Shown: positions 1 to 22,018 of the stretch, piece after piece
Layout of the letters: each line of letters opens with the position of its first letter
Numbering within the stretch: position 1 is the stretch's first letter
Translations under genes and position numbers: made by a program
Notes under the pieces: model-generated
Databases searched by the model: none
Told to the model about the DNA's origin: nothing
The model's input: the letters and a program-made list of their open reading frames with translations, nothing else
DNA from: a virus
IMG/VR virus record: IMGVR_UViG_3300030503_000146
Coordinates: 1 to 22,539 of that record
Strand: one strand, 5' to 3'
Length of the DNA: 22,539 nucleotides

Positions 1-2835
1 GGGTCCGGATTCATAGCAATGCACCGGGAGACTTGCCCACGGCTGACTTGAGATACCTGTTTTGAATGCCGCGAGGAGATTTATCGTCGACCCTACCCAT
101 CCTGCCGGGGAAACGCTCGGGTAGGTAACACTGCCATTTGCCGCAGTCCCTACGTTCTGATACATGCAGTTGAAGAAGTCGTCTAGCGGGTTTGTGACAC
201 CCATCATCGTAACGAAGTCGTTTGCGAAAGATGGAGTAACCGTAAACCCGCCAGTGCCTGTAGGAGTAACAGCCGCTCCACCTAGAGTTAACGATACCTC
301 GAACTGGCTTGATGTCAGATTGGTGGCTAGAACAAAATAATTTGTTCCAACGGTAAACCCACCAAAGGTTCTGTTGAACTGCACTTCCGTGCCGCTCAGG
401 AAACTATTAGAGCCCGCCAGAATGGGATTACCCGACGTCGCGGTTACCGCATACGAAGCGCCGCCGATAAAGTACGGCGCCATGCCCCAGTGCGTGAAAT
501 AAGTGTAGGGCTTATTGGTCAGGAAGCTGTTCGGATAGACACCACCCGCGATATTCGGTCCATTCATCATGTCGAGCAGGAATGACAGGCCATTGCCCGT
601 CGAGAACTCGGTCATGGGCCCGATCATGATGGTCGAGGCGAAACTCGCACCAAACACCGTCTGAAACGCTTGGCTTATCAAGGCATATTGCAAGGCGAAC
701 CACGAGAATGGATCATCCACACCGATTTGTGCGTACGCAATCGTGGCGACGTAAGGATAATCAGCCTCGATGAATACCTCGTTCGCTATTTCCAGGTAAC
801 ATTTAAGCCCTGGATTCAGAGTCGACTGCACAAGTTGCGCAAGGGATGTCCAAAACGCTTGCTGCCCTGTGAAGCTATTCGCCCACAGTGGAATGTTGAG
901 CCAGCAATCGGTGTTGGTGGCATTCGACATTGCAATGCAGACTTCGTACGGCAGCATCGGCGGCGTCCCGTTGCCGTTCGACCCTAGCCAAAAAGCCATT
1001 CCCGGCTGATTGCGTGTAGACCAGCCTGAAAAAGCGTGTATCCAGAGATTGGTGTTGCCTGCACTAACACTCTGTGTGAAGGCGCTCGAAAAAACTGCCG
1101 TAGCAGACCCGTTAACTAGAGTGACCGTGTTGTTCTGGGCGATGTCCGGAGGATTTGGAGTACCATTCCCCAGCACACAATTATAAACACCGCTCGCGCC
1201 CGCCCATGCGGCGGTCATAGTCTGCGTCAGGCTTGACCCTGTCGTCAGCGCTGGGACTTGAAATAAGTACACCTGCCCAGGAGAGGTGGTACTGGTCGTA
1301 TTGACCATTTGCAGCGCATCCATGTACCGGATGCGCTTGAATCCCCCTGCGCCATTGTTGGTGATCATCGCCACCCAATTGGGATCGATGAGGGTGCCAG
1401 AGTTGTAGTTCGCGACTTGAGATGTGCGAACGACCGAGTGATTCCTGAAGTAGTTCGTGTTCGACGGCAATGCCGTGATGTTCAGGAGGATGCCGCCAGT
1501 CGACGGCGTGACGTTGAAGGTTACAATGCCAGTCTGACCGCTGGTCATGGTGCTGGTGATCGTCAAACCACTGACTGAGACATTGGTCGAGGTCGTTGCT
1601 AGGGATCCCGATACCGCATCATTCGCCAGCACCAGCGTGCAAGCGCCCTGGAACGTCAAGGTATAAGACCCTGATGGGTATAATACTGAAGCACCGGGGG
1701 GCAAGCCGTTGCCGATCCCTGAGCCATTCGCACCCAAGGGATCCTCGTTGTTCATCCCCACATTCATGTACTGCGTGACCTTGTTCCCGCCGGGGAGCGA
1801 AGTCATATAGCCATTCGCATCGACTACGGCATTGATCTGATCCGAAGTTGTACTGCCCGAACTTGCCCAAGCCGTGAAGTTCGTGCCGTTTGAGCTTGAG
1901 ATCTTTGCGATATTGAGAAACGGCTGCTCAGTCGGGCTTGTCTGCAATACGCTGATATTGGCGCCTTCGTAAACAGAGGCGGAGGCGGCGTTGACCGTCA
2001 AACTAAATGATCCCGAAGTCGTATTACTTAAGCTGTCGGTTACGCTAATTATTAAAGTAGCCGTAGTAGCTGTCGCGGGGGTTCCCGAAAAAACCCCACT
2101 ACTTGAGAAAGATATCCCCGTAGGCAAGGTGCCCGAAGTAATCGCCCAGGTATATCCCGTCTCGGATCCACCCGTAGCTTGCATGGTGGCACCGTAAGGG
2201 GTTCCGGCAGTTGCATTGGGTAACGGGCTTGTGGTCGTAATCGTCAAGGGATTTACAGTGACAGACAACGTAAAGGGTTTGGAAGCCACATTGCTTTGGC
2301 TATCGGTGACCTGGATCGTGATACTCATCGAAGCAGTATTGGAAGTATGTCCCCCGAACACACCCGCACTTGAGAATGTCAATCCTGCATTTAAGCTTCC
2401 TGCAATAATCGCCCAGGTATATCCCGTTCCAGAGCCTCCCGTCGCATTCATGGTCTCACTGTAAGTTACATACTGAGTAACCGGCGGTAGGGGTGAGGAA
2501 GTCGTGATCGTCAACATCGCTTCTTGTTGACTAATCATCAGGTTAAAGGTCTTCTGAGAAGATAAATTATTAAGATCCGTACACTTAATTACGACAATAA
2601 ACGTCCCGTAAGTTGTCGGAGTCCCCGAAATAACCCCGTTAGACGCAAGACTGACCCCGGTTGGAAATGACCCAGAGACAAGACTCCAGGTATAGGGCAG
2701 CGTGCCCCCGTTGGCCAAAAGGGTATCCGTATAAACACTGTTCTGCGTGCCCGCCGGAAGTACCGCCGAAGATAGTATGTTCGGCCCCCCTGGTGGAGTC
2801 GGCATCAGCGCACATTCAAAGATAATCGGAGACAT
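1..2835 (-). CDS. Giant tail fibre / receptor-binding protein with Ig-like repeats and glycoside-hydrolase-like domain (3' end outside window)
   Basis: Translating the minus strand from the ATG at 2835 gives 945 uninterrupted codons to the window edge, so the C-terminus is missing. The ATG shares one base with the upstream stop (TAATG). Residues about 19-102, 108-195 and 196-282 are three putative Ig (He_PIG-type) repeats with the pattern Y-TW-(A/S)I-G-LP-G-(I/L)-F-S-G-(V/I)-F-SGTP-VTDS. From about residue 490 the protein resembles clan GH-A-type hypothetical glycosidases: RIRYMD near 501-506, a WLNIP strand, then LEIANEV with Glu686 (the NE acid/base motif) and LPVHCYESGP with Glu942 as candidate nucleophile. 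A separate Thr/Gly-rich module (about 795-868) sits between the two glutamates. The likely role is host-surface binding and polysaccharide cleavage at the tail tip. The glycosidase call rests on motifs only, and a non-catalytic carbohydrate-binding fold is possible. Confidence 0.85.
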   Translation of the reverse strand, partial: MSPIIFECALMPTPPGGPNILSSAVLPAGTQNSVYTDTLLANGGTLPYTWSLVSGSFPTGVSLASNGVISGTPTTYGTFIVVIKCTDLNNLSSQKTFNLMISQQEAMLTITTSSPLPPVTQYVTYSETMNATGGSGTGYTWAIIAGSLNAGLTFSSAGVFGGHTSNTASMSITIQVTDSQSNVASKPFTLSVTVNPLTITTTSPLPNATAGTPYGATMQATGGSETGYTWAITSGTLPTGISFSSSGVFSGTPATATTATLIISVTDSLSNTTSGSFSLTVNAASASVYEGANISVLQTSPTEQPFLNIAKISSSNGTNFTAWASSGSTTSDQINAVVDANGYMTSLPGGNKVTQYMNVGMNNEDPLGANGSGIGNGLPPGASVLYPSGSYTLTFQGACTLVLANDAVSGSLATTSTNVSVSGLTITSTMTSGQTGIVTFNVTPSTGGILLNITALPSNTNYFRNHSVVRTSQVANYNSGTLIDPNWVAMITNNGAGGFKRIRYMDALQMVNTTSTTSPGQVYLFQVPALTTGSSLTQTMTAAWAGASGVYNCVLGNGTPNPPDIAQNNTVTLVNGSATAVFSSAFTQSVSAGNTNLWIHAFSGWSTRNQPGMAFWLGSNGNGTPPMLPYEVCIAMSNATNTDCWLNIPLWANSFTGQQAFWTSLAQLVQSTLNPGLKCYLEIANEVFIEADYPYVATIAYAQIGVDDPFSWFALQYALISQAFQTVFGASFASTIMIGPMTEFSTGNGLSFLLDMMNGPNIAGGVYPNSFLTNKPYTYFTHWGMAPYFIGGASYAVTATSGNPILAGSNSFLSGTEVQFNRTFGGFTVGTNYFVLATNLTSSQFEVSLTLGGAAVTPTGTGGFTVTPSFANDFVTMMGVTNPLDDFFNCMYQNVGTAANGSVTYPSVSPAGWVGSTINLLAAFKTGISSQPWASLPVHCYESGP

Positions 2836-15055: not shown

Positions 15056-15210
15056 TGTTTGTATCTCAAGAAGTAAGCGAAGGGTTCTGAGGGTCTAATC
15101 AAGCTGATCACCAGCCCCACAATCTCGTAACGCTCAGCATGTTGGATGGATCGGCGGAAGGTTTCAGCCTCTTCAAGCGTTTTATATCCAGTCTGAAAGG
15201 CTGTGACCAT
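15052..15210 (-). CDS. 52-residue mini-protein after terminase large subunit
   Basis: This frame starts at ATG 15210 in a TGATG junction with the terminase stop and ends in a GTGA overlap with the next gene. The product begins MVTAFQTGYKTLEEAETFRR and ends PFAYFLRYKQ. It is an amphipathic helix followed by two beta-like segments (YEIVGLVISLI, FAYFLRYK), a compact alpha-beta composition. The exact fit between coupled neighbours is the main support. The function is unknown. Confidence 0.65.
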   Translation of the reverse strand: MVTAFQTGYKTLEEAETFRRSIQHAERYEIVGLVISLIRPSEPFAYFLRYKQ

Positions 15211-16745
15211 CAGTAGTATCCTTGCATTCGTGCCCTGTTAGACTTGAAATACTTCTCCGGCTCTTTCTCATCGTCGGGCAGCCTGATAAACCCACCTTGT
15301 CTGAACCGAAGAAGTGCTAGAGTCATGCTGTCCACTTGGTCATCATTTTTGCCTGATGGAAAATCGTTACACTGCTCTTGGACTTCTCGCGCCCAGCGCA
15401 TATCAGGCATCCAAACTATACCTGACATAAACATATCAGCGATGGCGTTAACCCGCGAGATCTTATCAGTGCCGGTACCGGGAGTAAACTCAGAACAAGG
15501 TATTCCCATACGACGCAGCTCTTGAAACAAAGCCGCCCCGGTGTTCTTCTTCTCTACGATGAAGCTATCAGGCTTCCAAGCCTTGTACTCTTCTAATACG
15601 AGCTTCTTGAGTTCTGGAAACTCCAGCCGTTCGTTTATCGCATTTAGTAAGATTATATTATAGTTATTGACTGCTTCATTTAAGAACACTCCCCAGATCT
15701 GCAAGGCGTTATAATCCGCCCTATTATTCGTCTCTTGCGCCGTGTCCAAGCTCATGATGATGAACTCACATGCGGGCGGAGTATCTTGTTCCCATATCTT
15801 CCACCAGTCTCTTTTTATTAATGCCCCTTCCTCTGATGTCGGATTCTGGAGATATTGTGATTGCCAATAGCGCACGTCCATCGAGGCTTTTTTGGCCAGA
15901 AGCTCTTCTACAGGCCAGAACTCAGGCCATAAAGACTTATATCCTGACTCAGCGGTGGGATCCTCGAATACAGCCGGAAATTCGACTACCTGCCATTGAT
16001 CAGCTCCTTCATTACGTAAAGCATGATCAATAATCTGCCCGATCAGGTCGTTCTTAGACCACCGAGTCATCACGATAATAATCGCCCCACCCGGCATCAG
16101 ACGCTGTAGTGGACCTGCCTGGAACCACTGATAGGCGGTGTTGAAAACTTCCGGGTTCCCCATCTTGGCATCTTGCTCAGAATGAGGATCATCGATAATA
16201 CACAGGTCCGCGCCTTTACCTGCCATGGCGCCGCCGACACCCATGGCGTGATATTCACCATGAAATTTATCTATACCCCAGCGTCCGGCTGATTTACTAT
16301 CTATTTGAATACTTACTTGAGGAAAAATCTCTTTATAAGACTCACTGGAGACTAAGTTACGGACACGACGGCCGAAATTCACAGCCAAGTCTGCTGTATG
16401 GCTAGCCATGATTACCTTCTTCTGTGGGTAACGGCCGAGGAACCATGCTGGCGCGAGATAGCTGATCATCTCGCTTTTCCCCATCCTGGGTGCAATCGAA
16501 ACCATAATACGTTTCAATCGACCCGCCACTATCTCCTCCATAAAAAAGGCAAGCTTTTTATGATGTGGCCCTATCTTGTAGCCCGGATACACGTGCTGAA
16601 TGAAGTCCAGAAAGCTACTTTTCCCTAATTCACGGGTTTTTTGGGTTTGATAAGTACTCAATAACTCTAAAAGCTTCCGTTTGTCTGCTTCTGGCAGTGT
16701 TGGAAGGAGAGTTTTAAGCTTTGATAAGGCTTCCGGGGTTAGCAA
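15210..16745 (-). CDS. terL: Terminase large subunit (packaging ATPase-nuclease)
   Basis: This 511-residue motor pumps DNA into the procapsid and cuts the concatemer. The ATPase half has the Walker A-like motif SIAPRMGKSE (Lys90), the Walker B LCIIDDPHSE (Asp185/Asp186, next to the catalytic acidic position), and the coupling motif MTRW at 226-229. The RNase H-like nuclease half has SLDTAQ (Asp334), VEKKNTG (Glu398) and KNDDQVDSM (Asp468/469/472), the three acidic metal-binding sites. An in-frame stop lies just before TTG 16745. Because no ATG occurs for some 70 codons, TTG is the best start, directly after the upstream TAG. The length is normal for the family. All catalytic residues appear present. 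Confidence 0.95.
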   Translation of the reverse strand: MLTPEALSKLKTLLPTLPEADKRKLLELLSTYQTQKTRELGKSSFLDFIQHVYPGYKIGPHHKKLAFFMEEIVAGRLKRIMVSIAPRMGKSEMISYLAPAWFLGRYPQKKVIMASHTADLAVNFGRRVRNLVSSESYKEIFPQVSIQIDSKSAGRWGIDKFHGEYHAMGVGGAMAGKGADLCIIDDPHSEQDAKMGNPEVFNTAYQWFQAGPLQRLMPGGAIIIVMTRWSKNDLIGQIIDHALRNEGADQWQVVEFPAVFEDPTAESGYKSLWPEFWPVEELLAKKASMDVRYWQSQYLQNPTSEEGALIKRDWWKIWEQDTPPACEFIIMSLDTAQETNNRADYNALQIWGVFLNEAVNNYNIILLNAINERLEFPELKKLVLEEYKAWKPDSFIVEKKNTGAALFQELRRMGIPCSEFTPGTGTDKISRVNAIADMFMSGIVWMPDMRWAREVQEQCNDFPSGKNDDQVDSMTLALLRFRQGGFIRLPDDEKEPEKYFKSNRARMQGYY

Positions 16746-16958
16746 CTAGGCATTTCTTTTAAAGAAGGAGAGGGGGAAGACAAAATCACAGTTCACGCAG
16801 ATCCCAGACCGTCCTTCGACGCCTATACGAGGTAAAATATTGATTCCACCGCATTGAGGGCAGTGGACGTGTTCTTTCTGGGCCATTTTCTCCGAAATTC
16901 GGCTCTCTACGAGCTTATCTAGGACCTCTTGGGTGGGTGTTTTAGGTTTATCTGCCAC
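16746..16958 (-). CDS. Small zinc-ribbon protein between TerS candidate and TerL
   Basis: The open frame extends further upstream, but GTG 16958 is preferred. It lies 11 bases before the upstream gene's end and has an AGGGGGT site in front, giving a 70-residue protein beginning VADKPKTPTQEVLDKLVE. The C-terminal half holds CPQCGG and CVNCDF, two Cys pairs 20 residues apart, a typical zinc ribbon. The N-terminal half is a charged helix. Placement in the packaging operon suggests a role with the terminase, perhaps DNA recognition, but this is inference. HNH-type nucleases also sit here in some phages, but no HNH motif is visible. Confidence 0.75.
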   Translation of the reverse strand: MADKPKTPTQEVLDKLVESRISEKMAQKEHVHCPQCGGINILPRIGVEGRSGICVNCDFVFPLSFFKRNA

Positions 16959-17550
16959 CTTCGACCCCCTGTGTGGTTGTTTCGATGGGAGAGATGAGAG
17001 CTTCCTGAGTATTAATAGTCCGGTACTCAAGAGCAGACAAAGTCTCAAGAAGCTCTTGCTCGACTTGCCCCAGGGATTTGTGAGTGACTGTGATGTCTTG
17101 CCGTTTATTAAAGGCCCCGATACCATCGATTTCTCCTAGTTTAGAGAGCGCCACGAGCTTATTTTTCTGCGAATCTGGGTTTTCTATTACTTCTACGAGC
17201 TTAGTAATGATGTAATTTTTATAATCTGCTAGATCCTGGACTAGACTTTTGTTGCATCTAGCTACCATGCCTGCCAGATAAGCAATCGCCTCGTCTGGAT
17301 AAAGAGAGAAGTCCGGCTTGAGGGTCGGATCCTTGGACATGGCCTTAGCCAGCATCTCCGCATCAGATATATTTTCATCTGATGGTAAAAGAGGATTGCC
17401 GGATAAATCTGACAGCAGCTTAATCGTCCTAACTCGCATGTTTAATTCTTCTGAAGGGGTTAGCTCAGGCAGGGCTTCGGTCTGATTTTTAGGTAAAGGA
17501 ACGTCCTCCTCGATATTGAGAACTAGAAAATCATCAAGGGTTTGCTCCAT
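16948..17550 (-). CDS. Terminase small subunit candidate
   Basis: This 200-residue protein precedes the terminase genes, where the DNA-recognition subunit is normally encoded. The N-terminus is acidic (MEQTLDDFLVLNIEEDVPLP). The central part is helical (AEMLAKAMSKDP, DEAIAYLAGMVARCN). The C-terminal part includes KNKLVALSKLGEIDGIGAFNKRQDITV followed by VEQELLETLSALE. That block, KL-EIDGIGAF-KR--ITV with a following EVE-EL--TL helix, recurs in small-terminase-like proteins of environmental phages, where it probably mediates oligomer contact. I do not see a canonical N-terminal HTH, so the assignment rests on the C-terminal pattern and position. No Shine-Dalgarno sequence precedes ATG 17550, and the start lies in a small hairpin. 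Confidence 0.7.
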   Translation of the reverse strand: MEQTLDDFLVLNIEEDVPLPKNQTEALPELTPSEELNMRVRTIKLLSDLSGNPLLPSDENISDAEMLAKAMSKDPTLKPDFSLYPDEAIAYLAGMVARCNKSLVQDLADYKNYIITKLVEVIENPDSQKNKLVALSKLGEIDGIGAFNKRQDITVTHKSLGQVEQELLETLSALEYRTINTQEALISPIETTTQGVEGGR

Positions 17551-17560: not shown

Positions 17561-17579
17561 TATTGTAATTATTACAATA
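17561..17579. promoter_or_regulatory. 19-base operator-like dyad upstream of packaging operon
   Basis: The sequence TATTGTAAT-T-ATTACAATA is a perfect inverted repeat with nine-base arms and a one-base centre, lying 11 bases before ATG 17550. Its inner 15 bases differ by only one position from a second site at 19557-19571, in front of the other leftward transcription unit. A regulator binding site is likely. TACAAT on the minus strand could also serve as a -10 element. Confidence 0.5.
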
Positions 17580-17587
17580 AATAAATC

Positions 17588-17612
17588 TAATTAGGGGTGG
17601 TGTGGCCACCCC
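17588..17612 (-). terminator. GC-rich hairpin, possible leftward terminator
   Basis: GGGGTGG (17594-17600) and CCACCCC (17606-17612) form a seven-base stem with a five-base loop. On the minus strand it is followed by an AT-rich tract (TAATTAGATTTATTTATT) rather than a clean T-run. It lies between the PEP-CTERM-like gene and the packaging genes, where transcription could be separated. Confidence 0.4.
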
Positions 17613-17694: not shown

Positions 17695-18264
17695 TTAACT
17701 TCTAGCCCGACCTCGCATCACCAAGCCGATCCCACCCAAAAGTGTAAGGGCAAGTCCCGCACGGGTCCAGTCGATCTCAGGCGCTGCATGGGATGGGGGA
17801 TCTACCCAGGTACCGGGAGCGCTGGTCGCTGTGATAGCGGCACACGGCGAGCTTTCACACTGGAACCCGTTTGTCTGCTGGAAGTACGAATCGCCTTGTG
17901 AGGATATCGTCACGTCATAGGTTGTTGGACTGTTGGTCCCCTGAGTCGTGAAGCCGAAACCCATATCAAACGCCGTGATTTGACCGTTGGTGGTTGTCAA
18001 CTGAAACTCGGGCGCCCCGCCGGGTGCTTCGGAGAGAAAGCCGATTGACGGGACAGTGAATCCCCATATTCCCGCAATGTTCATCGATGTTGGAGTCACA
18101 TCGACCGTACCGTTCTGAGGCAGTGCGGAGGCTAGTGTGATTGTTGAGTCAAAGAGGGGATTGCCGTCACTGTAATTCCATACCTGCTGCGCATATGCGC
18201 TGAAGCCGATCGTGGTTAGCAGTAGCAGCCATAGAGCTTTAGTCGCAGATTTCAGCTCGCGCAT
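17695..18264 (-). CDS. Secreted protein with PEP-CTERM-like sorting signal
   Basis: The frame is open from GTG 18309, but ATG 18264 is favoured. It follows the stop of the preceding mini-gene by 22 bases and gives a clean signal peptide: MRELKSATKALW, then a hydrophobic core (LLLLTTIGF) and an AYA cleavage site near residue 25. The 189-residue precursor has a Thr/Gly/Ser-rich exported domain (TTTNGQITAFDMGFGF, TTYDVTISSQGDSYFQQ), one Cys pair (CESSPC), and a C-terminal PEID motif at residue 162. The PEID is followed by a hydrophobic segment (AGLALTLLGGIGLVM) and an Arg-rich end (RGRARS). That is the tripartite arrangement of PEP-CTERM proteins, which exosortase cleaves and anchors or secretes in biofilm-forming Proteobacteria. 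On a phage it is probably a host-derived accessory gene. Confidence 0.8.
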   Translation of the reverse strand: MRELKSATKALWLLLLTTIGFSAYAQQVWNYSDGNPLFDSTITLASALPQNGTVDVTPTSMNIAGIWGFTVPSIGFLSEAPGGAPEFQLTTTNGQITAFDMGFGFTTQGTNSPTTYDVTISSQGDSYFQQTNGFQCESSPCAAITATSAPGTWVDPPSHAAPEIDWTRAGLALTLLGGIGLVMRGRARS

Positions 18265-18286: not shown

Positions 18287-18424
18287 TTATTTGGATTCAT
18301 GTTTGCCACACTTCATGCAAACGGGTTCTCCGCGCCTAAATGCATGCTGGCATCGTATTGGCCAGAAAAACCATACTAGAAATCCGCATAACAAAATTAT
18401 CATGATGATCACGGTTGTCTCCAT
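18287..18424 (-). CDS. 45-residue single-span membrane peptide with CxxC
   Basis: The frame starts at ATG 18424, inside the end of the upstream mini-gene (16-base overlap), and ends before the PEP-CTERM-like gene. The product begins METTVIIMIILLCGFLVWFF, a hydrophobic transmembrane helix. It continues into a basic cytoplasmic or periplasmic tail with two Cys-containing segments (RCQHAF, VCMKCGK), a possible small zinc site. Similar membrane-plus-CxxC peptides are common in phage accessory regions, usually without known function. It might belong to a lysis or membrane-modifying set, but no holin or spanin signature is certain. Confidence 0.6.
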   Translation of the reverse strand: METTVIIMIILLCGFLVWFFWPIRCQHAFRRGEPVCMKCGKHESK

Positions 18425-18564
18425 CTAGGTACGATCGCCCCGGGCCTATAGCCACGAGGCGTATGGTGTATGCAATGTGCATCGAATTCGCGCGAGATGC
18501 GGCGGCGCATATACCATACGAGGGCGATAAGCGCGGCTGGGATGAGCCAGAGAAGGTGCGTCAT
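18409..18564 (-). CDS. 51-residue membrane-anchored peptide
   Basis: ATG 18564 overlaps the preceding gene's stop in an ATGA junction. The protein starts MTHLLWLIPAALIALVWYM, a transmembrane helix, followed by RRRISREFDAHCIHHTPRGYRPG, a basic cytoplasmic-type tail with three His and one Cys. The positive charges after the helix suggest an N-out, C-in orientation. The function is unknown. Coupled start and end junctions and the membrane character support it as a real gene rather than noise. Confidence 0.6.
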   Translation of the reverse strand: MTHLLWLIPAALIALVWYMRRRISREFDAHCIHHTPRGYRPGAIVPRWRQP

Positions 18565-18839
18565 GGCTTCTCCGAGGCATCAGACTGAGATGGTCGCTGG
18601 TGCCAACCGCAGTGCGTGCAATACGTCGAGCCGTCCGTCCAAACTTTCCATTCAGGATTCAGGCACCCGCAGTACACGCGATCATCTCCCACCCATTCGA
18701 GCGCGGCAGTTTCCCAAAGGCTATCGACTAAGCGGCCTGACTCCAGCACCTCGCGAATCAATCTCTCGGCTTCTTCAAGCCGCTTTGCCGCTGGCGCGTG
18801 CTGTGCCTTGATCGAATCAACGATTCCGATGTAGGTCAC
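18561..18839 (-). CDS. Small Cys-rich protein (putative zinc ribbon)
   Basis: The 92-residue product starts at GTG 18839 with a GGAG-type site upstream and a GTGA overlap with a tiny frame before it. The N-terminal 55 residues are helical (IVDSIKAQHAPAAKRLEEAERLIREVLESGRLVD), followed by WVGDDRVYCGCLNPEWKVW and STYCTHCGWHQ. The Cys pattern CxC...CxxC with Trp neighbours suggests a zinc ribbon. It ends in SQSDASEKP, a tail that resembles the tail of the mini-ORF directly upstream. Its role is unknown. Confidence 0.75.
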   Translation of the reverse strand: MTYIGIVDSIKAQHAPAAKRLEEAERLIREVLESGRLVDSLWETAALEWVGDDRVYCGCLNPEWKVWTDGSTYCTHCGWHQRPSQSDASEKP

Positions 18840-18910
18840 GGCTTCGTTTCTCCGCTGTTAGGTGTCGGCCTCGTTGCGGCATCAGACTGTGAGTCGTTGC
18901 CCTTTATCAA
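18836..18910 (-). CDS. Possible 24-residue mini-ORF ending in an SQSDA tail
   Basis: A frame from TTG 18910 reads MIKGNDSQSDAATRPTPNSG and ends in ETKP. Its TGA overlaps the next GTG by four bases. The SQSDA motif and the final KP are shared with the end of the following gene, 18561-18839, which hints at duplicated 3' ends. A TTG start and the tiny size make this uncertain. It may instead be the tail of a longer, degraded gene. Confidence 0.3.
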   Translation of the reverse strand: MIKGNDSQSDAATRPTPNSGETKP

Positions 18911-18916
18911 TAAATA

Positions 18917-19119
18917 CCGGTTACGTTATCCACTGCCAGATAACAGCACCTTTATCTTCCGGCTTAAAGAAATGGACCAATTTTCCGTAAGGTACTTGTC
19001 CATCTTTAGTTACAGGGATACCTTTTTCAGTAAGAACTTCCCAGATTCTGGAAGAATCTTCCACACTTATTTTAACTTCAATCATAATTTCCTCTCTAAG
19101 CAAGCCGGTTACGTTATCC
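18917..19119. repeat. 15-base direct repeat flanking a small gene
   Basis: CCGGTTACGTTATCC occurs at 18917-18931 and again at 19105-19119. The copies bracket gene 18921-19085 and each contains a stop codon for a leftward frame. This arrangement could allow insertion or loss of the enclosed small gene by recombination. Confidence 0.6.
18921..19085 (-). CDS. 54-residue small alpha-beta protein
   Basis: The start is placed at ATG 19085, because GAGGAAATT lies directly upstream as a ribosome-binding site. A TTG 18 bases earlier is less likely. The product MIEVKISVEDSSRIWEVLTE continues KGIPVTKDGQVPYGKLVHFF and ends KGAVIWQWIT. It has no Cys or membrane segment and looks like a compact soluble domain. 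The stop codon lies within one copy of a 15-base direct repeat whose second copy lies beyond the start. No family is recognised. Confidence 0.7.
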   Translation of the reverse strand: MIEVKISVEDSSRIWEVLTEKGIPVTKDGQVPYGKLVHFFKPEDKGAVIWQWIT

Positions 19120-19255
19120 GGCGTGTTCCGCTGCGGTATAGAGTTAAAGCGGTCACCGTCGCCCAGTGGGGCTTGATCAAGAGTCTAACAGTTCCCGGCC
19201 ATCGTGGAACACCCAGCTCCCGTGCGGTCGTCGGATCCACCCGATCCCGGCTCAT
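19109..19255 (-). CDS. Doubtful 48-residue ORF ending in repeat copy
   Basis: From ATG 19255 a frame reads MSRDRVDPTTARELGVPRWP and ends SGTRRIT. It overlaps the end of the membrane peptide gene 19185-19346 by 71 bases, and its TAA lies inside the second copy of the 15-base repeat, as does the stop of 18921-19085. The shared ending (ATAACG before TAA) may reflect duplication. No ribosome-binding site is strong and no family is recognised, so it may be noise. Confidence 0.3.
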   Translation of the reverse strand: MSRDRVDPTTARELGVPRWPGTVRLLIKPHWATVTALTLYRSGTRRIT

Positions 19256-19346
19256 ACTTGCCGTGATGTGGCCATTGGATCATGAAATAGACTCCGAACA
19301 AGAAGGCAAGCCATAAATAAGGTGCGGCGCGTTTCAAAGTTTTCAT
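19185..19346 (-). CDS. 53-residue membrane peptide
   Basis: ATG 19346 overlaps the previous stop by four bases (ATGA). The N-terminus MKTLKRAAPYLWLAFLFGVY, with the following FMIQW, forms a basic start plus a hydrophobic helix. This is either a single transmembrane anchor with the C-terminal part outside or an uncleaved signal. The rest is short, polar and Gly/Ser/Asp-rich, with two Cys (GAGCSTMAGNC). It is the second of two adjacent coupled membrane peptides at the head of the leftward operon. A lysis or superinfection-exclusion role is possible but unsupported. Confidence 0.6.
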   Translation of the reverse strand: MKTLKRAAPYLWLAFLFGVYFMIQWPHHGKYEPGSGGSDDRTGAGCSTMAGNC

Positions 19347-19474
19347 GGCATAAGCTTCCAATTGCGATAATGATTTCTGATTAATTTTTGTCGGTCCTTG
19401 TGAATAGTGAAGAAATGAATCCCTGCAAGAATAAAGGGGAGGACCCCGACTACGAAGGCGATTAGAAACAACAT
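19343..19474 (-). CDS. 43-residue membrane peptide, first gene of leftward operon
   Basis: The product begins MLFLIAFVVGVLPFILAGIH, a strongly hydrophobic helix, followed by a basic tail (FFTIHKDRQKLIRNHYRNWK). It starts at ATG 19474, about 25 bases after a predicted transcription start, with a weak GGGAAG site. The stop overlaps the next gene (ATGA). The short hydrophobic head plus basic tail fits an inner-membrane anchored peptide. No family is recognised. Confidence 0.65.
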   Translation of the reverse strand: MLFLIAFVVGVLPFILAGIHFFTIHKDRQKLIRNHYRNWKLMP

Positions 19475-19809: not shown

Positions 19810-20403
19810 ATGACTACTATCTTCAAAAGCTTTCAGGATCTAGGCTATCAGTTCGCAGGACACATCGATGCTGAAGTCTCTTATGCATCGTACCTGGTTG
19901 AACATGTCCCTGACTTGACCGCAGTGCCGCAAGATGTGATCGATCAGGTCAAAGCGGGTTTCATCCTGCGCTATGCGGAACTACATCCCGCCAAGCATTA
20001 CATGCAAGACGGTGAGGACACGTTTGTCGAGTGCGAGTCGGAGGATCTCAAAGACACAGCAGGGTTTGAATGTTCGGTTGGATACTGTGTTTCTTTACCG
20101 AGACATGAGTTCGGCGAACTGAAACCCAACAAGAAAAACTTGGTCAAGAAGATCCGCGATGCAGCCAAGATGTATGCAGACATCCGTTGGTCTCGTTTGT
20201 TGAAAGCCGCAGTCGGTATCACGCAGGACGCCGCAGGCAAAGTGCGAGCCGCCAATAAAAGCTTTCAGGAATGGTTGGACAAGATGCTAGCCGATGCTGT
20301 GACTAAGGCGCGTGTTGCCGTCAAAAATGGCGATCCGACAGCGATTGATCCGGCTAAACTGCAAGTGAGGATCGAGCAGTTCAAGAATAATCTGAAAGCT
20401 TAA
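19810..20403 (+). CDS. 197-residue unknown protein, first rightward gene
   Basis: This protein opens the rightward direction and is followed by a clear terminator, so it appears to be monocistronic. It begins MTTIFKSFQDLGYQFAGHID. An acidic N-terminal half contains DVIDQVKAGFILRYAELHPA and FVECESEDLKDTAGFECSVG. The C-terminal half is basic and helical (LVKKIRDAAKMYADIRWSR, NKSFQEWLDKMLADAVTKAR). Two Cys (FVEC, FEC) lie in the middle. No enzymatic or DNA-binding motif is certain. The strong ribosome-binding site, nearby operator and terminator suggest an abundant, regulated early protein. A single-stranded DNA-binding or replication-accessory role would fit the context but is only a guess. Confidence 0.9.
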   Translation: MTTIFKSFQDLGYQFAGHIDAEVSYASYLVEHVPDLTAVPQDVIDQVKAGFILRYAELHPAKHYMQDGEDTFVECESEDLKDTAGFECSVGYCVSLPRHEFGELKPNKKNLVKKIRDAAKMYADIRWSRLLKAAVGITQDAAGKVRAANKSFQEWLDKMLADAVTKARVAVKNGDPTAIDPAKLQVRIEQFKNNLKA

Positions 20404-21072: not shown

Positions 21073-21360
21073 ATGCCCCGCCTCATGCCCACTCAAGAGA
21101 CTAAGTCATTGATTCGCAAGATGTATTACGAGGAGCACATTCCACGTGCCAGAATCCGCGCCAAGTACGATATCAGCGAGAACACACTCAGCGACGTATT
21201 GCGTGATCCTAACCGTAAACCCTATCGCTATCTAAACCCCACTCAATATCCCCTCATACATGCCGATAAGCGGGCAGGCATGAGCTATCGCGAGATAGCA
21301 GCCAAGTACAATAGCTCGCGCGCCAATATCGTCCGGGTGATAAAACTCTATGGGATATAA
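21073..21360 (+). CDS. Small protein with two HTH segments
   Basis: The 95-residue product contains two helix-turn-helix-like segments. The first is at about residues 11-43 (IRKMYYEEHIPRARIRAKYD, then ISENTLSDVLRD). The second is at about 61-91 (IHADKRAGMSYREIAAKYNS, then SRANIVRVIK). Both follow the L-R-I-A-KY-xS---I--V pattern of transcription regulators and homing-endonuclease-associated HTH domains. Pro/Arg/Tyr-rich residues link them. It is followed by an 11-base overlap with a larger multi-HTH gene, so the pair probably act together at the dyads nearby. No catalytic domain is seen. Its DNA target is unknown. Confidence 0.75.
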   Translation: MPRLMPTQETKSLIRKMYYEEHIPRARIRAKYDISENTLSDVLRDPNRKPYRYLNPTQYPLIHADKRAGMSYREIAAKYNSSRANIVRVIKLYGI

Positions 21361-22018
21361 ACTATCTGACGATGATAAAGAAATAATCTTAGAATTGTAT
21401 TCATCGCATAAATACACTCAGCGAGAACTATCAAAAAAGATGCAAATTCCTGAAGGTTTAATCGCTGCCTACATAAGATCAATGATGCAGCCCCATCGAT
21501 ATCAGCCGAACGAGCCTATAAATTTCAGCACCTCCAATGCAATTCTGTCCGATTGGCGCAATGGTATTAAGAAAAACTCCTGGTCACTGCGGTATAAACC
21601 CTCCAAGGCTGAGCTAGGACGCAAATACAAGGTCCATCGCACGACGGTAGCCAGGATAATCAAAGCTGAGCGCAAAACGATGTCCGATGGCCTGGTGCGG
21701 GCACACAGAGCACGTAGGCACAAGGATAAGGTGCAGCGTGCACGCAATAGGAAGTGGATTGACAAGCGCCGGACGGGGTTTGTGAGTCGGCCTGGTGCTG
21801 AGCCGGAGCAAATCCTATCACTTGATAGGAAAGAGATTAAGCCAAGGGATCGCAAGAACTACCGGATCAAAAAGTCTAGTGCTATAATGCTAATTAACGC
21901 TGCGGCGAAAGGCATGCCACGAGATCAGTTATTGCGTGATTACCGGATCACTGAGGGGTTGCTGGACATGTGTCTGCGACATGGGGTCGAGATTAAGCAG
22001 GGGAAGCCAATTGAGTAG
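21350..22018 (+). CDS. Large multi-HTH DNA-binding protein
   Basis: This 222-residue protein starts at ATG 21350, 11 bases inside the previous gene. Several HTH-like segments are visible: residues about 8-43 (DKEIILELYSSHKYTQRELS, IPEGLIAAYIRS), about 64-106 (SKAELGRKYKVHRTTVARII) and about 175-213 (MLINAAAKGMPRDQLLRDYR, ITEGLLDMCLRHG). Between the second and third lies a highly basic region (VRAHRARRHKDKVQRARNRK, then WIDKRR) that could contact DNA or RNA. There are no nuclease or recombinase residues that I recognise. The gene carries an intragenic copy of the TCCTATCA dyad at 21813-21830. It is probably a regulator, and auto-regulation is possible. Confidence 0.8.
   Translation: MGYKLSDDDKEIILELYSSHKYTQRELSKKMQIPEGLIAAYIRSMMQPHRYQPNEPINFSTSNAILSDWRNGIKKNSWSLRYKPSKAELGRKYKVHRTTVARIIKAERKTMSDGLVRAHRARRHKDKVQRARNRKWIDKRRTGFVSRPGAEPEQILSLDRKEIKPRDRKNYRIKKSSAIMLINAAAKGMPRDQLLRDYRITEGLLDMCLRHGVEIKQGKPIE
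21813..21830. promoter_or_regulatory. TCCTATCA-CT-TGATAGGA dyad, copy 3, inside the HTH gene
   Basis: This 18-base perfect inverted repeat lies inside the coding region, encoding part of QILSLDRK. It is identical to the core of copy 2 and differs from copy 1 in one central base. It may be an intragenic operator. Confidence 0.5.

Follow-up and report, generated by a model that had tools for sequence, protein, structure and literature searches.

A phage accessory gene probably encodes a substrate of the host exosortase E/protease

In this work we describe an accessory phage gene whose product is probably a substrate of the exosortase E/protease (XrtE) of its host. The gene is located in a 22,539-base virus record (the window, meaning the whole stretch of DNA analysed). 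Because the encoded protein carries an exosortase-E-type tag and has a chromosomal relative in a bacterium with XrtE, the phage probably makes use of the sorting apparatus of its host to modify the cell surface. In biofilm-forming bacteria, exosortases and the proteins on which they act are known to be chromosomally encoded. Exosortase E, to which no role has been assigned to our knowledge, is a rare bacterial membrane enzyme that is thought to recognise a PEID-type tag. We infer that the host has XrtE, that this enzyme processes the window protein and that the phage benefits from it.

Results

The PEID gene and its product

The gene and the parts of its product are listed in Table 1. Alternative in-frame starts exist upstream, at 18300 (ATG) and 18309 (GTG), and no strong ribosome-binding site was found at these two or at 18264. 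The other five frames across the gene contain 7-10 stops each, and a homologous bacterial protein (see below) supports its coding status. The protein starts with MRELKSATKALWLLLLTTIGFSAYA, followed by QQ, and its full ending is SHAAPEIDWTRAGLALTLLGGIGLVMRGRARS, the C-terminus reading HAAPEIDWTRAGLALTLLGGIGLVMRGRARS. According to this translation, an earlier note on this DNA was right in describing a signal peptide with an AYA site, an exported Thr/Gly-rich domain and a C-terminal PEID motif followed by a hydrophobic helix and an Arg-rich end. Two cysteines of the mature domain, Cys 136 and Cys 141, are kept in the bacterial homologue. An AlphaFold2 model made from two sequences showed beta-rich secondary structure between two helices, with a mean pLDDT of 46.8 that makes it usable for secondary structure only.

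Table 1. Features of the window and of the bacterial and viral loci compared with it
Feature	Position	Strand	Basis or remarks
Terminase large subunit (TerL)	15210..16745	-	phrog_38, E 1.8e-99
Packaging-module gene upstream of TerL, in the terminase small subunit position; boundary of the PEID gene	16948..17550	-	Homologues in 54 related viral loci
AT-rich palindrome, possible operator, located between PEID gene and terminase-proximal gene	17561..17579	.	Sequence
GC-rich terminator-like hairpin GGGGTGG..CCACCCC, then AT-rich run	17594..17612	-	z -4.0, 108-nt region
Perfect 9-bp-stem hairpin directly after the stop codon	17663..17682	-	z -3 to -4 for downstream hairpins
PEID gene: PEID-tailed, putatively exported protein, 189 aa	17695..18264 (ATG 18264, stop 17695)	-	Translation; full-length homologue in L158
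Basic end RGRARS	17698..17715	-	Translation, tail alignment
Hydrophobic helix AGLALTLLGGIGLVM	17716..17760	-	Translation, tail alignment, structure model
PEID motif, residues 162-165, presumed recognition/cleavage site	17770..17781	-	13 aligned PEID tails
Mature Thr/Gly/Ser-rich, probably beta-rich domain, residues 26-161	17782..18189	-	Homologue alignment; structure model
Signal peptide, residues 1-25, predicted cut between AYA and QQ	18190..18264	-	Translation; N-terminal helix 3-22 in low-confidence model
197-aa phage gene, opposite boundary	19810..20403	+	Homologues in the corresponding position of viral loci L020 and L021
Chromosomal PEID-tailed protein, 215 residues	L158:1495-2142	-	35% identical to the window protein end to end
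PEID-tailed XrtE neighbours	L113-L116, L152, L156, L157, L175, L177, L178, L180-L183		Family loci
Viral PEID-tailed ORF	L098:12299-12580		Signal-peptide-like start, lipoprotein-like (LLPGC)
Viral PEID-tailed ORF	L099:6440-7042		Signal-peptide-like start; repair gene beside
Viral PEID-tailed ORF	L100:1513-1743		Signal-peptide-like start; terminase and head-tail genes beside
Viral PEID-tailed ORF	L101:51-245		Signal-peptide-like start
Viral PEID-tailed ORF	L102:1065-1265		No clear signal peptide; overlaps holin gene end, opposite strand
Viral PEID-tailed ORF	L103:3134-3322		No clear signal peptide
Viral PEID-tailed ORF	L141:4955-5260		Signal-peptide-like start; exonuclease-type gene beside

Type of the sorting signal

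The protein matched no Pfam or NCBIfam family, and only a chance-level match was obtained in PHROGs. The earlier note had taken its ending for a PEP-CTERM-like signal and had held that a lack of match to the PEP-CTERM profiles would speak against this. In fact, neither TIGR02595 nor PF07589 matched the protein even at E 10, a negative result that is informative because a canonical PEP-CTERM sequence used as a control reached 32.9 and 38.5 bits, respectively, with the same models. Since the motif is PEID and not PEP, we discard a canonical PEP-CTERM identity, and what stands of that proposal is the tripartite exosortase-type tail, now of the PEID type. The VPEID-CTERM model TIGR04161 (cut-off 33 bits) also matched neither the protein nor its tail nor, even at E 10, the window, so the protein cannot be filed under TIGR04161 or PEP-CTERM. 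The VPEID-CTERM layout, with PEID, a hydrophobic stretch, a basic end and an N-terminal signal peptide, is present. PEID itself is invariant in 13 of 13 aligned tails, but these had been chosen by a PEID pattern. The window tail departs from the bacterial consensus in having W for P after PEID and R in the next turn.

A profile was built from five XrtE-adjacent tails, none of them obtained via the window's pattern, and it picked the window ORF alone from the six frames (28.7 bits, E 2.2e-8). Furthermore, the real tail scored above all 20,000 segment-wise shuffles in which the three-part layout was kept. With a second profile, of eleven tails, the window ORF was found at E 4e-8 and the real tail exceeded 50,000 such shuffles. 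The window tail is not made by chance.

The PEID tail and exosortase E in bacteria

The tail was searched for with a DNA pattern for PEID-x7-LTLL-x-G, either alone or extended by RGR. In the RGR form, PEID-x7-LTLL-x-G-x5-RGR, it occurred in eight stretches among 84,980 genomes, seven labelled as Proteobacteria/Gammaproteobacteria MAGs and one as Terriglobia; according to group searches, seven of the eight come from MAGs that belong to a single bacterial family. When translated, the ORFs have the ending PEIDP..LTLLxGxLxVxRGRR. XrtE, which in the one genome analysed with Pfam consists of an exosortase domain and an Rce1-like CAAX protease domain, was above the TIGR04162 cut-off in six of the eight tail-selected genomes, as compared with a single genome, the centre genome itself, in a sample of 369 from the class.

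As the tail-selected genomes had been picked by a window-derived pattern, XrtE was also searched by itself to remove this circularity, in 296 genomes of the order and in all 217 genomes of the family. The family contains 14 tail-positive and 18 XrtE-positive genomes, 12 being both (Fisher p 1e-13), and when the pattern-selected genomes were dropped XrtE was present in 7/7 tail-positive genomes (p 5e-10), although both p-values overstate independence because the genomes are related. XrtE was not found in two of the 14 tail-positive genomes, assemblies whose completeness is not given. Moreover, 14 of the 18 family loci have a small gene with a signal peptide and a PEID-type tail at most 1.5 kb from XrtE (Table 1). 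These small genes encode a signal peptide, a short and often His/Asp-rich segment and the tail.

The LTLL-type tails of XrtE-adjacent genes that were tested score below the TIGR04161 cut-off, and for this reason such genes are probably missed by current annotation, a gap caused by where the NCBIfam model leaves the tails of this lineage. Two XrtE neighbours elsewhere in the order do pass this cut-off. The window tail is of the PEID kind associated with exosortase E/protease rather than of the EpsH/XrtA type. As PEID-tailed genes adjoin XrtE, some of them passing TIGR04161 and the LTLL-type ones falling below, we take the LTLL tail to be most probably a variant of the VPEID-CTERM signal in this lineage, with XrtE as the presumed cognate enzyme. 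The idea underlying the earlier note thus survives, because the bacteria with the PEID tail carry an exosortase.

The Terriglobia (acidobacterial) genome contains, at L094, two full-length XrtE genes together with small genes that have PEID/PEIS tails; the LTLL-type tail thus also occurs outside the Gammaproteobacteria. A search for the host by DNA similarity among the 217 family genomes gave only chance-level matches of 28-44 bases (E 0.002-0.01).

Other PEID tails in phages

The pattern PEID-x7-LTLL-x-G also matched six viral contigs, and a seventh PEID-tailed contig is L141 (Table 1). The matches to a looser viral pattern (L193-L195) were rejected as chance matches that are not C-terminal tails. 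The mature part of the L099 product, the only one compared directly, is unrelated to the window protein, and the remaining viral ORFs have little mature part, several being tiny; the sorting tail is therefore the shared element. This suggests that phages have captured PEID tails repeatedly and independently. XrtE was not found in the six records L098-L103, nor in the window record itself. We incline, with some reserve, to the view that phages of environmental bacteria with XrtE have repeatedly come to encode exported proteins with a PEID tail, which use, or compete for, the exosortase E of the host during infection.

A chromosomal relative of the window protein

Among 396 genomes of the order, a single whole-protein relative was found (E 2.6e-10), encoded at L158 (Table 1) in G603, which is one of the few XrtE-positive genomes of the order. 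It has a signal peptide and the tail SAPEIDSASAAGALTLFLGALAILRSKRRPG, and shares with the window protein the motifs APG, GTNSP, VTI, GD, the two Cys and SAPG-W. Its gene lies between two metabolic genes, one aminodeoxychorismate-synthase-like and the other for a molybdopterin oxidoreductase, which indicates that it is chromosomal. No second full-length relative was revealed in the 217-genome family by a profile of the window protein and this relative. Given the homology of the mature domain of the window protein to a PEID-tailed protein of bacteria, a bacterium is the most likely source of the phage gene.

This relative also bears on another explanation of the tail, namely that it is a mere inner-membrane anchor facing the periplasm, for example of a superinfection-exclusion or lysis-timing factor, with no action of an exosortase. 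Such a function would fit a tail that deviates from the bacterial consensus and is recognised by none of the curated models, and the other phage PEID ORFs, being short in most cases, could encode simple membrane proteins. However, a plain anchor needs hydrophobicity only, whereas here PEID and the LTLL-x-G spacing are kept, the shuffled tails with the same three-part layout score below the real one, and the bacterial homologue ends in the same signal in an XrtE-positive genome. We consider the anchor explanation unlikely and favour the sorting of the protein by XrtE.

Phage setting and accessory status

The presence of the terminase large subunit identifies the contig as a phage. On the minus strand, a cluster of short ORFs is followed by the PEID gene, the gene at 17550-16948, TerL and the portal gene (phrog_1216), beyond which there are more genes common to related phages, on the same strand. 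The PEID gene is thus placed beside the packaging genes, as the earlier note had stated, and its immediate neighbour has no PHROG match despite its homologues in related viruses. The isolates nearest by terminase are phages of 57-65 kb, such as DSL-LC04 and the Pelagibacter phages HTVC023P and HTVC027P (44-49% identity), and terminase relatives at about 70% identity are present in IMG/VR.

The region 18287-19474 (minus strand), which separates the PEID gene from the divergent gene at 19810, contains five to six short ORFs, several of them with one likely membrane helix; no convincing family match was obtained for those scanned. To judge by the sequence, the cluster of small membrane peptides mentioned in the earlier note is plausible. 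At 1-2835 (minus strand) there is a protein of at least 945 residues, clipped by the contig end, in which repeated Ig-like blocks are followed by a glycosidase-like-looking stretch; it is probably a tail fibre or tailspike. Two overlapping consecutive ORFs at 21073-22018 (plus strand) show repeated helix-turn-helix-like segments.

The earlier note had also placed terminator-like hairpins on both flanks of the PEID gene. We found them downstream (Table 1), where the two hairpins, the second with an AT-rich run, could end the PEID transcript ahead of the packaging genes, and none was found upstream. Promoter-like matches at the gene are no more frequent than in shuffled sequences and none stands out.

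No ORF with an exosortase-type tail was found in 88 related terminase loci, many of which, not all, reach the site. This agrees with the non-conserved accessory gene that the earlier note had proposed, and with it we reject a conserved position of the gene; the homologues in the same place of other phages that the note had suggested looking for did not appear. A direct search with the single protein found no whole-protein relatives in 50,697 phage records, 72,556 plasmids, IMG/VR or 84,980 GTDB representative genomes. The same was true in phage records for tblastn with the bacterial homologue and with the consensus tail (a short query that the low-complexity filter may affect), and in IMG/VR for a two-sequence profile of the window protein and the bacterial homologue.

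In another explanation the gene is an inert passenger, namely a surface gene that the phage acquired from its host, or a decoy tying up XrtE and thereby keeping host substrates from being processed, the mature domain being functionless in either case. Its GC content (0.554, versus 0.45-0.47 in the adjacent packaging genes), the lowest codon fit to the phage core genes of those measured and its absence from related phages would all be expected of a passenger, and the other phage PEID ORFs, which are mostly tail with little mature domain, look like decoys. Yet the codon difference is small, the ORF is intact at only 35% identity to its bacterial relative, suggesting long retention, and the mature domain has been preserved, with its APG, GTNSP, VTI and GD motifs and the two Cys. 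We therefore regard a functionless domain as improbable and keep to a probable XrtE substrate that would serve the phage.

Discussion

The mechanism that we propose is taken from the PEP-CTERM/EpsH model (Haft et al. 2006, PMC1569441). The signal peptide would carry the protein through the Sec channel, and the C-terminal helix with the Arg-rich end would anchor it in the inner membrane so that PEID lies on the periplasmic side. The XrtE of the host would then cut or transfer the protein at PEID, freeing the beta-rich domain to the outer surface or the matrix, and the phage would use it during infection to alter the surface of the infected cell. Export and tail type are supported by the sequence, and the processing and final location would be those of the model. 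As for the benefit, our first choice, a tentative and rather doubtful one, is the masking of surface receptors or another form of superinfection exclusion; the alternatives are an effect on aggregation or on the matrix, a decoy for XrtE and a simple role in the inner membrane.

In the literature on PEP-CTERM, phages and exosortases, subscription papers aside, the titles and the first part of the abstracts do not report a phage-encoded substrate, and 'VPEID-CTERM' was not found as a term in the literature searched, with the same exception. Phage-encoded presumed substrates for a host sortase are thus apparently undescribed. If our proposal is true, viruses put proteins on infected cells by means of a host sortase, a route to the host surface that has not been described before, and this would suggest that envelope delivery via XrtE matters in the conflict between phage and host. 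The phage-borne substrates could also offer a handle on the role of the still uncharacterised XrtE system, and the PEID tail a sequence marker for guessing the hosts of uncultured phages. We know of no phage surface-modifying or exclusion factor that uses a host sortase-type signal.

The nearest known protein is that of G603, which resembles the window protein in its signal peptide, length, cysteines, SAPG-W and PEID tail, and differs in being only 35% identical and encoded on a bacterial chromosome beside metabolic genes. With the VPEID-CTERM/XrtE system (TIGR04161, TIGR04162) the window protein shares PEID, the hydrophobic stretch, the basic end and the signal peptide, and the bacterial family that has the same tail carries XrtE beside PEID-tailed genes. 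In contrast to that system, the gene sits in a phage, its tail, like the tested LTLL-type tails of the family, scores below the TIGR04161 cut-off, and its basic cluster follows at a shorter distance than in the TIGR04161 members of this study. The PEP-CTERM/EpsH (XrtA) system is similar in having a motif at the periplasmic face, a helix, a basic end and a signal peptide, as well as few homologues (Haft et al. 2006, PMC1569441), whereas the window protein has PEID for PEP and does not match TIGR02595 or PF07589. Finally, SieA of phage P22 (PMC10883804) is comparable by analogy only, with no sequence relation claimed, as an accessory phage product located in the envelope of the infected cell.
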